From contig JALHOW010000004.1 in assembly GCA_022842785.1 (NCBI GenBank), forward strand, positions 464,387 to 528,386: a stretch of 64,000 nt of DNA, given 5' to 3'. A model generated the notes under the pieces. The model was not told where the DNA came from. It worked only from the letters and a program-made list of their open reading frames with translations, and did not search any database. Shown here piece after piece: positions 1,192-52,264 of this stretch. Both the position numbers and the translations under genes were made by a program. Position 1 is the first letter of the stretch. The number at the start of each line of letters is the position of its first letter. The stretch comes from Hyphomicrobiaceae bacterium. Its GTDB lineage: Bacteria; Pseudomonadota; Alphaproteobacteria; Rhizobiales; Hyphomicrobiaceae.

Positions 1192-4100
1192 CTAATTCCG
1201 CCGCCCATACCCGCCGCCGGCTGGCGTCTCCATGTGATAGAGGTCGCCGGGTTGCATCTCCCGCCGGTCATTCCCTTCAAGATGCTCCTTCGTGCCGTCG
1301 ACGCGCTCGACGATATCGACACCACGGGCGCCCGGCGCCCCGCCCGCGAGGCCGAACGGCGGCACCTTGCGCGATGAGCCCAGCGTGGTCACGGTCATGG
1401 CTTCGAGGAAGCGCATCCGCCGGAGCGCGCCGTCACCACCGCGCGAGCGCCCAGCCCCGCCCGAACCGCGCCGGATGCTGAAAGCTTCGAGCCGCACCGG
1501 GAAACGCCACTCGAGAATTTCCGGATCGGTCATGCGCGTATTGGTCATGTGCGAGTGCACCGCGCTCGCGCCATCGAAGCCATCACCAGCGCCCGTGCCG
1601 CCGCAGATGGTCTCGTAATTCTGCAGGCGCGCGTTCCCCCACACGAAGTTGTTCATCGTCCCGTGCGAGCCGGCCAGCACGCCGAGCGCGCCGAAGAGCG
1701 CATTTGTCGCCGACTGCGACACCTCGGTATTCCCCGCGATGACCGCCGCCGGATAGCGCGGATTGAGCATCGTACCTTCGGGCGTAATGATCGTGAGCGG
1801 CTTGAGGCAACCTTCGTTCAGCGGGATCTCGCTCTCCGAAAGCGTGCGGAAAACATAGAGCACGACGGCACGGCATACGGCGAGTGGGGCGTTATAGTTG
1901 AACTCGCTCTGCGCTGATGTCCCGGTGAAATCGATGGTTGCCGTGCGCGTCGCACGATCGACACGCACCGCGACATGGATCGCCGCACCGCTGTCCATGG
2001 GATAGTGGAACTCGCCGTCCTTGAGTGTATCGATGGCCTTGCGCACGGCCGCTTCGGCATTGTCCTGCACGTGGCGCATGTAGGCATCGACGACTTCTTG
2101 GCCGAACTGCTCGACCATGCGCACGATCTCGCGCGCGCCTGTCTCGTTGGCAGCAATCTGCGCGCGCAGGTCCGCCATGTTCTGATCGATATTGCGGCAG
2201 GGATAGCGCCCCGAGGCGAGCAGCGCGCGCGTCTCCGCATCGCGCAGCCGCCCCTGATCGACCATCTTGAAGTTGTCGATGAGGACACCTTCCTCGTCGA
2301 TATGGCGGCTGTCCGGCGGCGCTGAGCCTGGCGTCCTGCCGCCAATGTCCGCATGGTGACCGCGCGAGGCGACGATGAACAGAATGCGCGCGCCATCGCG
2401 GCTGAAGACCGGGGTCACGACCGTCACATCGGGGAGATGCGTGCCGCCGCGGTAGGGATTGTTCAGCATGATGCTGTCACCCGGCTTCAGGTTGCCGGCA
2501 TTGAGACGCAGCACCGTGCGCACGGCTTCGCCCATGGAACCGAGATGCACCGGCACGTGCGGCGCATTGGCGACGAGATTGCCTTCGGGATCGAAGAGCG
2601 CGCAGGAGAAATCGAGGCGCTCCTTGATATTCACCGAGTAGGCGGTGTTTTCGAGCGTCGCGCCCATCTGCTCGGCGATCGACATGAAGAGGTTGTTGAA
2701 CACCTCGAGCATGATCGGATCGGCCTCGGTGCCGAGCTGCTCGCGTCGAGCTTGCGCTGCCGTGCGTGTGAGCACGAGATGGCCGAGGTTAGTGATCGCC
2801 GCGGCCCAGCCCTCTTCGACGACGTTCGTGCCTGTCGGCTCGATGATGATCGCGGGGCCTTCGATCGTATCACCGGGATCGAGCTTGGCGCGGTCATAAA
2901 GCGACGTCTCGGCCCAGCCGGCGCGCGTGTGCATCCGCACTTGTGCGATCGCGCGCACGTCTGCTTTGTCGCTCGCCGCAAGGGTCCGCTCGACGATCGC
3001 ATCGCTGGCACCGATGGCCTCCAGCGCCACGGCTTCGACGATAAGATCATCGCTCTCGACAGCAAAGCCGAAGCGCGCGCGATGGACCTCCGCGAATCTC
3101 TGGCGGAGTTCGTCCTCGGTCCCGAACTCGACGGCCAATGGCTGATGTGCACCCTCATAGCGGACGTGCACACGCCGCTCGATCCTGATCCGCTCGCGCG
3201 CGATGTCCTGTCCGAGCACTTCATCGACGGCGGTCGCCTCGAGTTCGGCGAGCGCGTCGGAAATGGCCGCGGCCGATCCTTTCAAAGGTCGCTCCACCTG
3301 GCGTTCGCGCAGCGCCCGCACTTCGGCGAGTCCCATGCCATAGGCCGAAAGCACGCCCGCATAGGGATGCAGCAACACGCGCGTGATCCCGAGCACATCC
3401 GCGATGGCGCAGGCGTGCTGGCCACCGGCACCACCGAAGCAGTTGAGCGTGTAACGCGTCACGTCGTAGCCGCGTTGCACCGAGATCTTCTTGATCGCAT
3501 TGGCCATGTTCTCGACGGCAATGCGCAGGAAGCCTTCCGCGACTTCCTCGGGCGAATAGGACGTGCCGCTCGTCTTGTTGATCTCGGCCGTCATGCGCGC
3601 GAAGGCGGAGCGTGCCGCCTCCACATCGAGCGGCTCGTCACCACCAGGGCCGAACACGCTCGGGAAATGATCCGGCTGGATCTTGCCGAGCAGGACATTG
3701 CAGTCAGTAACGGCCAGGGGACCGCCGCGCCGATAGCAGGCGGGGCCCGGATTGGCGCCCGCGCTCTCAGGCCCAACCTGGAAGCGGCCGTCCTCAAACT
3801 TCAGGATGGAGCCGCCACCCGCCGCGATCGTGTGAATGTGCATCATGGGCGCACGCATGCGCACGCCCGCAACTTCCGTCTCGAAGGAGCGTTCGTACTG
3901 TCCGTCGAAGTGCGTGACGTCGGTCGACGTGCCGCCCATATCGAAGCCGATGAGCTTGTCGAAACCGGCCATGGTGCCGGTCCTGACCATCCCGACGACT
4001 CCGCCGGCAGGTCCCGAGAGGATGGAATCCTTGCCCTGAAAAAGGGCGGCATCGATCAACCCGCCGTTCGACTGCATGAACTGAAGACGTCGGCAACCGC

Positions 4101-4800
4101 CGCGATCGGCGCCAAGCTCGTCGCGCACCTGATCGACGTAACGCCGCAGCACCGGCGAGAGATACGCATCGGCGACAGCCGTATCGCCGCGTGAGACGAG
4201 CTTGATCAGTGGGCTCGCGAGATGGCTCGGCGAAACTTGGGTGAAACCGATCTCCCGTGCGATCTCGGCGACACGCTGCTCGTGCGCGGGATAGCGATAG
4301 GAATGCATGAACGCGATCGCGACTGCGCGGATGCCAGCGGCGTAAGCATCTTCCAGCGCGGTGCGCGCAGTCGTCTCATCCAGGGGACGGACGACCTCGC
4401 CGCGCGCCCCCATGCGCTCGTCGACTTCGCCAACGCGTGTGTAGAGCACTTCCGGCAGCCGGATATGCAGATCGAAGAGGCGCGGACGGCTCTGGTAGCC
4501 GATGCGCAGAAGATCGGCGAAACCGCTGGTGATCAGCAGGAGCGTCGGATCGCCCTTGCGCTCGAGCAGCGCGTTGGTCGCAACTGTCGTGCCCATGCGC
4601 ACGGTATCGATGACGCCCGGCGGGATCGGCTCGCCAGTCTTCAGCCCGAGCAGATCACGGATACCCTGCACGGCGGCATCGCGATAACGCTCGGGGTTCT
4701 CCGAGAGAACCTTGTGACAAAGGATCTCGCCGTCGGGCCGGCGCGCGACGACGTCGGTGAACGTGCCACCGCGATCAATCCAGAACTGCCACATAACCAT
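1192..4800 (-). CDS. Fused hydantoinase A/B, 5-oxoprolinase-type (HyuA-HyuB fusion)
   Basis: 1202 aa; N-term '[19 protein letters not shown]', '[16 protein letters not shown]', C-term HyuB '[20 protein letters not shown]', '[20 protein letters not shown]'. Confidence 0.92.
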
Positions 4801-47329: not shown

Positions 47330-47985
47330 AGGACCTCGCTGTGGGCATGGACTTCGCCCGGCTCGGGCGCGGCAAGCTCGAGAATGCGCGCATTGCTGAG
47401 GCCGAGCGGCCCATGCGTCGCCGCAATCAACATGCCACCACCATCCAGATGCTGCTGCATGAGGCCGGCAAGCAGCGCCTGCGAGGCGACATCTAGCGCG
47501 GCCGTCGGCTCGTCGAGCAGCCATATAGGCCGCTTCGCGAGCAGCAGGCGCGTCAATCCGAGACGCCGCTTCTGTCCGGCGGAGAGATAGCCGGCCGGCA
47601 CCTCGGCGAGATCCGCGAGATGCAGCATGTCGAATGTGTCGTCGACCGCGCGCACATCGCCATTGAGGAAGCGCACCCAGAACTGCGCGTTCTCACGGAC
47701 CGTCAGGCCGGGCTTCACGCCATTGGCATGGCCCACATAGTGCGCGCATTCGCCGACCAGACTGTCGTCATCGCCCGAACCCTCGAGGCGGATCACCCCA
47801 GCATCGGGTGGAATGAAGCCGGCGAGCGCGCGGAGCAATGTCGTCTTGCCGACACCATTGGGGCCGGTGAGCACCAACGCCTCGCCTGCCTCGACGGCGA
47901 ACGACAGGCCGGCGATCAGCCGCCGCTCACCGCGCGAGAGCGATATGTTGTCGGCCACCAGCCGCATGTCGGGGCCGCCGCTCAA
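47326..47985 (-). CDS. ccmA: Heme ABC exporter ATP-binding protein CcmA
   Basis: '[28 protein letters not shown]', '[32 protein letters not shown]'; overlaps ccmB. Confidence 0.95.
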
Positions 47986-49157
47986 GCCGTCTCGTTGAAG
48001 AGTTCGCGGCCGATGAGCATCCGGCGGATCTCGCTCGTGCCGGCGCCGATCTCGTAGAGCTTGGCATCGCGGAGAAGGCGGCCTGTTGGCGACTCGTTGA
48101 TGTAGCCTGTACCGCCGAGAAGCTGGATCGCATCGAGCGCGATCTTGGTCGCGCGCTCGGCTGCGAAGAGGATCGCACCGGCCGCATCCTTGCGCGTGGT
48201 CCGCCCGCGATCGCAGGCCTTGGCGACAGCGTAGACGTAGGCGCGCGCGGCGTTCATCTCGGTGTACATGTCGGCGACCTTGCCTTGCACGAGCTGGAAG
48301 GTACCGATCGGCGCGCCGAACTGCTTGCGTTCGTGAATATAGGGCAGCACTACGTCGATCGCCGCCTGCATGATGCCGACTGGCCCGCCGGCGAGCACGG
48401 CGCGCTCGTAGTCGAGCCCGCTCATGAGCACGTTGACGCCCTTGCCTATGCCGCCGAGGATATTCTCCGCGGGCACCTCGCAGTCCTCGAACACGAGTTC
48501 ACCCGTCGACGAACCGCGCATGCCGAGCTTGTCGAGCTTCTGGGCAACCTTGAAGCCCGGCGTCGTCGTCTCGACGAGAAAGGCGGTGATGCCGCGCGGT
48601 CCGGCGGCGGCATCCGTCTTGGCGTAGACGACGATCACCTGCGCATCCGGCGAGTTGGTGATCCACATCTTGGTGCCGTTGAGAACGTAGCGGTCGCCCT
48701 TCTTGTCCGCGCGAAGCTGCATCGAAACGACGTCCGAGCCCGCGCCCGCTTCGCTCATGGCGAGCGAGCCGACATGCTCGCCGGAAATGAGCTTCGGAAG
48801 ATACTTACGCTTCTGCGCCTCCGAGCCATTGCGGCTGATCTGGTTGACGCAGAGATTGGAGTGCGCGCCGTAGGAGAGACCGACCGACGCCGAGCCGCGC
48901 GAAACCTCTTCCATGGCGACAACGTGCTCGAGATAGCCGAGCCCCGAACCTCCGTACTCCTCCTCGGCCGTGATGCCATGCAGACCGAGCGCCCCCATGC
49001 GCGGCCACAGCTCGCGCGGAAAGCGGTCCGTGCGGTCGATCTCGGCCGCAATAGGCGCGATCTCGTCGGCGGTGAAGGAGCGGACGGTGTCGCGGAGCTG
49101 GTCGGCCGTCTCGCCGAGGTCGAAGTCGAGTGTCGGATATTGGTTCGGGATCGACAT
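47982..49157 (-). CDS. Acyl-CoA dehydrogenase, isovaleryl-CoA dehydrogenase-like
   Basis: '[29 protein letters not shown]', '[44 protein letters not shown]'; start at [12 protein letters not shown]. Confidence 0.93.
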
Positions 49158-49412
49158 GATGGGCCTCGTGATGGGCGCGTGTCCGCAGGAATGCGCTGGC
49201 ACTCTTGCTTCGTCGGTATCTGGCTGCCGGGCCAAGCGCAAGCAGGCCTGACCTCGAGAGCTGTTCGCCTGCGGAGATCTGGTGTTTCCAGCATCTGCAT
49301 CCGGGCGCAAACTACTAATACTGAACATCGTTGTATTTGAGGCCGAATCAGTGCTCGTTTCGAGGCTGGCCACCTCGGTTGCTGGCCAACGACGAATAGG
49401 TCGAACGATAGA

Positions 49413-51230
49413 ATGATGAGCATTTGGACGCGTGGCCTGGCCGCGGCATTGTTACTTGCGGGCGGGGCTACGGCGATCCGCGCCGATGACCCATTCGCCA
49501 AGAAGTGGGAGCCGTGGCTCGAGATCGGCGGGCGGTATAGCGATCAGCGCACGCTCGGCGAGGCCAACCTCTTCGCGCCCCTCATCCAGACGCACAATTC
49601 GCTCGTCTTCGCCGATCTACGCGGCATGTTTGACAACCACGACGCCGCCGAAGGCAACTTCGGCCTTGCGATCCGGCGCATGTATACCTCGGGCTGGAAC
49701 GTCGGCGGGTACGGCTATTACGACGTGCGCCGCTCGTCGTTCGACAATGTCTTCCATCAGGTGACCTTCGGCGCCGAGGCCCTGAGCCGCGACGTCGATC
49801 TACGCGCCAATGTCTACCTCCCGGTCGGCAGTCGCGCAGAGCGTATCGGCCTCGGCTCAACGACGTCGACCACTGACACGACGGCCGCGGTCCTGACGGG
49901 CACGTCGCTCGCCATCCAGAGCCAATCCGTGGTCACGACCACGAGCACGTACATGCTCGAAAAGGCGCTCGCCGGCTTCGATGCGGAGATCGGCTTTCGC
50001 GTGCCAGTGTTCGATCTCGACTCAGGGCTGGATCTGCGGACGTTCGCCGGCGGCTACTACTTCGATGGCTCCGACGTCGACAAGGTGGCGGGGCCGCGCT
50101 TTCGGCTGGAGCTGACGGCCAATGATGTGGTCGGCCTGTCCGGCGTGAAGCTGGCCGGTGGCGTCATCTATCAGCACGACAATGTCCGCGGCGAGCAGTG
50201 GATCGCCCAGGCGCGGCTGCGGATTCCGCTGCAGGCGCCGGCGGCGCGGGCCAGCCGACCGCTCACCTACATGGAGCGCCGCATGGCTGATGCCATCGTG
50301 CGCGACGTCGACATCGTCTCCAACACGACCGCGGTGAAGACGGCAACAGCCACATCCACAGTCACGCACACCGAAGCGGCGATCAACACCTGGAACGGCG
50401 AGACGGTGACCTCCGTCAACTATGTCGATGCCGGATCCGCGGACCAAGCCGACCTGCAAGCCGCCCTCGATACCGGTGGCGCCGGCAGCGTCGTGGTGCT
50501 CAATGGCGGCATCACCGCCACCGACCAGCTGATTATCAACGAGCGCCAGACGCTACTCGGCGGCGGAACGGACCTGCTCGTGCGGGGCGCGGTCTCGGGG
50601 GTCGAGGTCGTCTACACCGCCACCGGCGCCGCCGGCAGCTTTATCGGCGACAATACCACAGTCACCACTACTGGTGGCTCTCCCGGATCTGTGTATGCGC
50701 TGGTCGCCGTCCGGGACTACGGTGTGATCGGGGGCATGACGATCGAGAAGACCGGCGAAACGCCCCATTTTTTTACATACGCGGCCACGGTTCTCGGTCA
50801 CACGGCTGATCCGGGTGGCAGCCCCATCGGTATCGCGCTCTTCGGCAACACCATCGTGGCTGGCCTCGGTTCCATGTCTTACGGTGTTTGGTTCAACCAC
50901 GGGCGCGATATCACGATCATGGACAATAACATTGCCGCACCGGACGGCGGCATAGCCGTAGTTTTATTCGACTCGTCAGACAATGCTCGCGTGGTCGGCA
51001 ATCGCCTCGGCGTAGGGAGCGCAGCATCTTACGGTCTGATGTTCGCTGGCGACGGGAACTATCAAGTCACAATCGCTGACAATTCTATCGGCGGCTCTGT
51101 GAACAGCCTTTTGTTCCTCAGCTCAGTCCATGCATCGAACTCCAGCGGAAACGTCATGGCGGGCTTCGGACATTGCAACGGAAGATCAGTGACCGGCGTG
51201 ATCGAGTTCACGGACGGGACTAGATGCTAG
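49413..51230 (+). CDS. Inverse-autotransporter beta-barrel protein with parallel beta-helix passenger
   Basis: Signal peptide; '[41 protein letters not shown]...[42 protein letters not shown]'; C-term '[32 protein letters not shown]' beta-helix coils. Confidence 0.8.
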
Positions 51231-51421
51231 GCTCGATTCGTTGCACTGCAGGCAGAAATCGGCAAACGGTGGGCGAGCGCCCCTGCGACCATCGCGCAAA
51301 TCGGCAACACGCAGACGGATAGTGTCTGTAGGAGAATAAATCATGCTGGACGGGCGGAAAGGGGCCTTTGCATATTCCCGGACGGTTCTTTCGATCACTT
51401 GCACCTTCCGGAGCCCCGCCG

Positions 51422-52264
51422 ATGCCCCGCTTTCTGCTGCCTGCCGCAATCGTACTCGGGCTCGGCTTTGCGCTCGGGACTTTGGCCGCGCCGCTCCCGG
51501 TTTCGGCACAAACGGCAACCGAGGCTGCTGAAACAGCATTCTGGGACAGCGTAAAAGACTCTCGCGACCCGGCCGAGGTCCGCGCCTACCTCGAAAAATT
51601 TCCGAACGGCCTCTTCGCGCCGCTGGCAAAAATTCGGCTGAGGAATCTGGAGGCCGCGAAGACGCCCGCCCCGGCGCCGAGCACGGCAGCGAGCACACCG
51701 CCGCAACAGCAACCCACGTCAGCGCCGGCACTGACGAGCGAGTCGATCATCCGCGAGGTGCAGGACCGCCTCTATAACCTCAACTACATGATCGCAACCC
51801 GCAACGGCCGCATGAACGATCAGACGCGCGAAGCCATTCGTCAGTGGCAGACGAACGTCAAGCAACCGCTCGGAGTCATGACCGTCTCACAGCTCGCATT
51901 GCTGCGCAGTGCACAGCTGCCGGCGACCTGGGGCTCGATTGCATACTTCTCGAAGGGCGCGTCCTCGACGGTGTGGAACCGCCCGACACGCGAGATCGCT
52001 GAGCGGGAAGCACTGGCTGCGTGCCGCAAGAACGCGGGCGCGCCGTGCCAGGTACTGAGTGTCGCGAATAAGATTTGCGGCGCGCTCGGCTTCTACAATG
52101 CCGTCGTCAGCGGACAGCAGCACTGGGGTGCCTATGCGTCCGTCCGTCCGACCCTCGGACAGGCGACGGATCACGCCCTTTCCGAATGCCGCAAGCAGGC
52201 CAAGCAGCCGAACGCTTGCGGCATCCGCGCGACTGTATGTGCGGACGGGAGCCATCAGCGATAG
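51422..52264 (+). CDS. Secreted peptidoglycan-binding-like + DUF4189 protein
   Basis: 'IREVQDRLYNLNYMIATRNGRMNDQTREAIRQWQ' PG-binding-like and 'WGSIAYFSKGASSTVWNRPTREIAEREALAACRKNAG' DUF4189. Confidence 0.85.
   Translation: MPRFLLPAAIVLGLGFALGTLAAPLPVSAQTATEAAETAFWDSVKDSRDPAEVRAYLEKFPNGLFAPLAKIRLRNLEAAKTPAPAPSTAASTPPQQQPTSAPALTSESIIREVQDRLYNLNYMIATRNGRMNDQTREAIRQWQTNVKQPLGVMTVSQLALLRSAQLPATWGSIAYFSKGASSTVWNRPTREIAEREALAACRKNAGAPCQVLSVANKICGALGFYNAVVSGQQHWGAYASVRPTLGQATDHALSECRKQAKQPNACGIRATVCADGSHQR

Follow-up and report, generated by a model that had tools for sequence, protein, structure and literature searches.

A predicted inverse autotransporter with a β-helix passenger from an alphaproteobacterium

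The passengers of type Ve, or inverse, autotransporters have been described as Ig-like and lectin-like (PMC6555100, PMC8151025), and the intimin/invasin family has been termed almost exclusively gammaproteobacterial (PMC6714894). In reviews, β-helix passengers are tied to classical type Va autotransporters and Ig-like beads to type Ve. The window analysed here, a stretch of 64,000 nucleotides from a Hyphomicrobiaceae bacterium, holds a gene that raises the question of whether an inverse autotransporter barrel may also present a β-helix, since the initial annotation proposed for it an intimin/invasin-like barrel fused to such a passenger. The answer developed below, which we regard as probable, is that the gene encodes an inverse autotransporter of type Ve, from a subfamily in Alphaproteobacteria in which a variable and disulfide-capped β-helix, displayed at the surface, would fold outward from a conserved cap and serve most likely as an adhesin.

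Gene layout and the N-terminal barrel

The open frame assigned to this gene proved exact (Table 1), running complete from an ATG start to a TAG stop, and its homologues share 38-48% identity with the 605-aa product, either over the whole length or over the barrel and cap. A single chain presents, in order, the barrel (aa 32-275), a linker (aa 288-303) and the passenger (aa 304-605), which makes up the C-terminal 300 aa or so, with the barrel beginning about 8 residues past the probable signal peptide. The alignment of 11 family proteins (A1) displays from N- to C-terminus a conserved barrel, a linker signature, a conserved segment (aa 321-408), variable repeats and a Cys tail. A second family alignment (A2) provided a profile of the barrel and linker.

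Table 1. Features of the inverse autotransporter locus, with positions numbered along the window
Feature	Position	Strand	Basis
Acyl-CoA dehydrogenase gene, flanking; true start probably near 49158	47982..49373	-	Pfam; 84-88% DNA identity in genus
Stretch missing from four same-genus genomes (empty site)	49247..51290		Flank matches, empty-site alignment
Inverse autotransporter gene with β-helix passenger, 605 aa	49413..51230	+	Open frame, translation, homologues
Probable Sec signal peptide, aa 1-24	49413..49484	+	Inspection: Arg, hydrophobic core, A-x-A-like end
Predicted outer-membrane barrel domain, aa 32-275	49506..50237	+	PF11924, invasin 4e1t profile match, family alignment A2
Barrel-to-passenger linker, aa 288-303	50274..50321	+	Invariant residues in A1; by-eye match to YeeJ
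Conserved barrel-proximal passenger cap, aa 321-408	50373..50636	+	Invariant residues, score against shuffles
Predicted right-handed β-helix, aa about 425-580	50685..51152	+	Family profile against β-helix structures; Beta_helix/NosD in relatives; own score against shuffles
C-terminal Cys tail, C588 (51174-51176) and C605 (51225-51227)	51147..51227	+	Pair conserved in relatives
PG_binding_1 and DUF4189 protein gene, flanking	51368..52264	+	Pfam; 73-77% DNA identity in genus

The IAT-like character of the N-terminal half is confirmed at the level of sequence profiles, which predict an inverse autotransporter barrel. Pfam family PF11924 (IAT_beta) matches aa 45-201 (E 2.1e-10; 41.1 bits against a curated cut-off of 22.3), a region that covers the middle of the barrel only; this is the single match in the genome as a whole, and 10 of the 11 family members are recognized. 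NCBIfam invasin models yield weak matches over the same region, while the family profile finds the invasin barrel of known structure (4e1t, E 5.6e-4) and recovers the barrel of Escherichia coli YeeJ over about 90 residues. About 12 candidate barrel strands can be distinguished by inspection, in a protein whose whole-length model reached a pLDDT of only 37.5. Within the linker, R290, M291, R297 and D298 are invariant in A1, and the conserved RRMxxxxxRDxDIV was aligned by eye with RRSLAGSRYDLVDRNNNIV of YeeJ, an alignment that also gives ARRSLAGSRYDLVDRNNNIVLEYRKK and RRSLAGSRYDLVDRNNNIVLEY as YeeJ counterparts of the linker. Pfam detects in the 605-aa protein neither a LysM domain nor PF03797, the C-terminal autotransporter barrel of type Va.

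The passenger and its cysteine tail

The part of the passenger nearest the barrel is its conserved cap, in which E321, G356, G365, G383, G385, G396 and G405 are invariant in the 11 proteins of A1; invariant passenger residues are confined to Gly and this one Glu. Further along, the motifs from which a parallel β-helix had been proposed form an Asn ladder at aa 479 (GNTI), 505 (DNNI), 530 (GNRL) and 557 (DNSI), with spacings of 26, 25 and 27 residues. Together with the family profile, they support a C-terminal β-helix rather than Ig-like repeats, and no Ig-like or lectin domain was matched in the 605-aa protein at E up to 10 in Pfam. The profile search suggested in the initial annotation succeeded for PF11924 and fell short for the protein's own helix, for which Pfam returns only NosD (E 0.006-0.014; 16.5 bits, under the cut-off of 23.6); phmmer, run with this one sequence on the PDB, gave no match. 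The β-helix families are recovered in relatives, where Beta_helix is matched in 31 of 46 family passengers (E up to 0.01, and down to 1e-41) and NosD in 26 of the 46. When segments of the protein were scored with a profile built from the remaining passengers and compared with about 300 shuffles, the cap reached 71.9 bits (shuffle maximum 10.9), the helix stretch 12.9 bits (5.9) and the Cys tail 9.7 bits (6.4).

Searched against the PDB, the passenger-only profile retrieves α-1,3-glucanases, pectate lyases, mannuronan epimerases and GH110 enzymes (best E 1.3e-10), and the passenger part of the family profile matches the β-helix of the mannuronan epimerase AlgE4 (E 2.2e-6). AlphaFold models built with the protein and one relative as input were too poor to serve as evidence (pLDDT 48.3 for the passenger), and the Foldseek matches of the passenger model, mostly β-helix proteins but all with E > 0.05 and a low TM-score, are likewise set aside. 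Because the models failed, the fold of the 605-aa protein rests on family evidence, by which a right-handed β-helix is weakly predicted for the single protein and securely predicted for the family. The closest relative found, from Aminobacter anthyllidis (L011:6001-8298), bears a longer and very regular helix.

The closest solved β-helix structures are carbohydrate-active enzymes, and a few family members match Glyco_hydro_28 (E about 1e-4 to 1e-6), from which one might picture a polysaccharide-active enzyme, be it a lyase, epimerase or glycosidase, tethered to the surface by the same anchor and acting on exopolysaccharide through a catalytic groove. This is nevertheless unlikely. The structural matches may mirror the fold only, the helix contains no invariant residue of a catalytic type, Gly alone being conserved there, and the AlgE-type catalytic DPH motif is absent in all 46 full-length relatives, the 605-aa protein included. 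The number of rungs also varies, the passenger extending 209-547 aa past the linker among full-length relatives. The passengers share no catalytic residues and their helix changes fast, which makes binding, as an adhesin, likelier than enzymatic action.

The best Pfam match of the protein's own helix is NosD, itself a periplasmic protein, and the barrel might accordingly anchor a NosD-like β-helix that is kept in the periplasm without autotransport. Such an arrangement appears improbable, more so than an enzyme at the surface, given that the NosD match lies below cut-off and mirrors the repeat, that the barrel and linker signature are as in exporting family members, and that the domains are ordered as in intimin and invasin. 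The initial annotation had held that a soluble periplasmic fold combined with no match to IAT_beta would speak against its proposal; the PF11924 match stands above cut-off.

A displayed adhesin remains the preferred interpretation, and its extreme C-terminus bears the short Cys-containing tail that had been singled out beforehand. C588 and C605 are the sole cysteines of the 605-aa protein, and the tail pair is kept in 44 of the 46 full-length relatives, two of which have further cysteines. Exactly two mature-protein cysteines, both in the last 60 residues, are found in 42 of the 46 (the 605-aa protein counted), and the pair is absent only in the close relative from Aminobacter (L011) and in L026. 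The tail usually takes the form of a Cys, up to about 30 residues that often include TG[ST][IV]xF, and a terminal C-P or C-N. Cysteine pairs at the C-terminus have been noted in the intimin/invasin family (Tsai et al. 2010, PMC3008723), and in intimin the pair is disulfide-bonded, the passenger becoming sensitive to protease when the bond is missing (PMC8151025). By analogy, the C588/C605 pair may fulfil the same role.

Distribution, variation and genomic setting

Relatives with the same architecture are found in Aminobacter, Shinella and Rhizobium, consistent with the alphaproteobacterial host named at the outset. Within the same family, 7 of 103 genomes contain homologues, the source genome counted, at up to four per genome. 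Scanned with the single sequence, genome contigs yielded one relative only, that of A. anthyllidis, and viral contigs none. At the level of the order, the A2 profile has matches in 39 of 398 genomes, at that of the class in 33 of 385 and at that of the phylum in 14 of 399, such that barrel carriers make up about 8-10% of the genomes sampled from order and class; outside the class no A2 match is full-length, the partial ones (E 1e-5 to 1e-8) spanning about 90-105 positions. Plasmid records of Shinella and Rhizobium hold both domains under the labels 'right-handed parallel beta-helix repeat-containing protein' or 'hypothetical protein', which indicates that annotation pipelines see pieces of the architecture, each label seen naming one half at most.

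Some weaker A2 matches are joined to passengers of another kind or of great length. At L055, L056 and L058-L064 there are related barrels, several of which share the linker motif, mostly in small genomes of 1.4-2.6 Mb from the same class, a genome size that suggests host-associated carriers; the passengers of L055, L056, L060, L063 and L064 comprise about 480 aa or more and match no Pfam family. The same barrel also lies inside open frames of 2700-4800 aa (L037, L040-L042, L086 and further matches in genomes G404, G291 and G244), with β-helix matches in the portion of L037 and L040 that was covered. On plasmid p2 of Aminobacter niigataensis (L109, 67150-79674), a gene of ~12.5 kb labelled hypothetical encodes ~4200 aa, holds an IAT barrel and a β-helix in its first 1253 aa and adjoins an invasion associated locus B family gene. 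A cyanobacterial protein of 1022 aa from the conjugative plasmid pREC1 of Acaryochloris marina (L107, 336407-339475) has an IAT barrel just over cut-off and no recognised passenger, with a transposase nearby.

Barrels and helices differ in how well they are preserved, barrel identity exceeding helix identity in most pairs compared, with 96% against 36% in one example. Two pairs within genome G024 show 86% against 46% and 75% against 32%, and one in G414 shows 93% against 61%, whereas in the pairs L052/L053, L045/L046 and L094/L021 the two values differ little. A tandem of inverse autotransporters (L099, G771:C1:1254500-1260500; frames 1326-3062 and 2996-4690) carries very different passengers on barrels whose DNA is 85-100% identical, with identity falling to about 60% directly past the linker and dropping also before the barrel. 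This pattern in the sequence fits either gene conversion of the barrel or exchange of the passenger at the linker.

The gene is accessory. In four genomes of the same genus both flanking genes are present and the inverse autotransporter gene between them is absent; in three of these, the matches to the flanks stop at query positions 1175-1247 and resume at 3291-3295, lying 67-131 bases apart at the empty site, and in the fourth (G001) a longer gap separates them and the right flank is matched only in part. No flanking direct or inverted terminal repeats were seen at the empty site and no transposase among the neighbouring genes checked. The locus would be a one-gene insertion, for which a gain in the source lineage is the simpler reading and a loss in the other four also possible. 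The stretch at about 51291-51370 (GCGCAAAT-GGCAACAC...GGATAGT...TTTTGCATA) lies upstream of the point where the PG_binding_1 and DUF4189 gene probably starts, yet three genomes of the genus conserve it; it is perhaps the promoter region of that gene.

This absence from four relatives, along with the GC content of 0.61 in the passenger and 0.66 in the barrel, might hint that, in one genome, chance or assembly had joined an IAT barrel gene to an unrelated β-helix gene, but that idea is rejected as hardly credible because relatives bear the same fusion, in dozens of genomes that include single-contig ones (e.g. G024) and named plasmids, with a common cap and Cys tail.

Proposed mechanism and relation to known systems

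The favoured model of a disulfide-capped, displayed β-helix would operate as follows. After Sec export, the N-terminal barrel would insert into the outer membrane and the passenger would exit through it as a hairpin led by its N-terminal end, the route thought to serve type Ve passengers and accepted for intimin and invasin (PMC3467248, PMC8151025). The passenger would remain tethered by the conserved linker in the pore, while the cap beside it would fold first and template the helix outward, one rung after another, until a disulfide in the last residues closed the distal end. A precedent for folding from a cap is offered by type Va proteins with β-helical passengers, in which a conserved autochaperone beside the barrel starts folding (PMC5767081). 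The exposed helix would provide a fast-changing binding surface, most likely that of an adhesin for surfaces or glycans.

A text search, with subscription papers outside its reach, returned no description of an IAT barrel combined with a β-helix, and a sizeable alphaproteobacterial group of such proteins apparently stands undescribed; its members most likely display a variable surface-binding protein. More tentatively, and with somewhat less than an even chance of being right, the group may constitute a distinct and widespread alphaproteobacterial branch of type Ve, in which a β-solenoid would leave the cell and fold from its N-terminal end outward as the mirror of the classical type Va β-helix, and diverse helices would be exchanged at the linker boundary on a conserved barrel platform.

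Three sets of β-helix or barrel proteins invite comparison. With NosD, the AlgE-type mannuronan epimerases and the pectate lyases, the passenger shares β-helix repeats with an Asn ladder (family profile E 1e-6 to 1e-8), but it has no conserved catalytic residues that could be found and is fused to a predicted outer-membrane barrel. The type Va autotransporters pertactin, Hbp and EspP display a single-stranded right-handed β-helix from a barrel, as the present protein would, and a folding cap beside the barrel is expected here on the same autochaperone logic. The order is reversed, however, with the barrel at the N-terminus, such that both export and folding of the helix would begin at its N-terminal end.

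In domain order the protein agrees with the intimin/invasin family, comprising YeeJ, intimin and invasin (PF11924), which shares the N-terminal outer-membrane barrel and C-terminal passenger, the linker RR...R[DN]x[DN]IV and a disulfide-capable Cys pair at the extreme C-terminus. In contrast to that family, the barrel here is only distantly related, a β-helix replaces the Ig-like or lectin domains, and no LysM or other periplasmic domain precedes the barrel. A LysM or periplasmic domain is found in only some type Ve members and an Ig-like or lectin passenger is typical, neither of them being a defining feature. The alphaproteobacterial Int/Inv homologues reported earlier belong to the same barrel superfamily and bacterial class and were described as a barrel only, without a passenger (Tsai et al. 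2010, PMC3008723), whereas a passenger is present here. A natural family that joins a type Ve barrel to a β-helix would uncouple domain order from passenger fold, and the occurrence of one fold in both polarities would make it testable whether barrel-adjacent folding drives secretion. It would also widen the intimin/invasin family, reported mainly from Gammaproteobacteria, to take in surface proteins of many Alphaproteobacteria.
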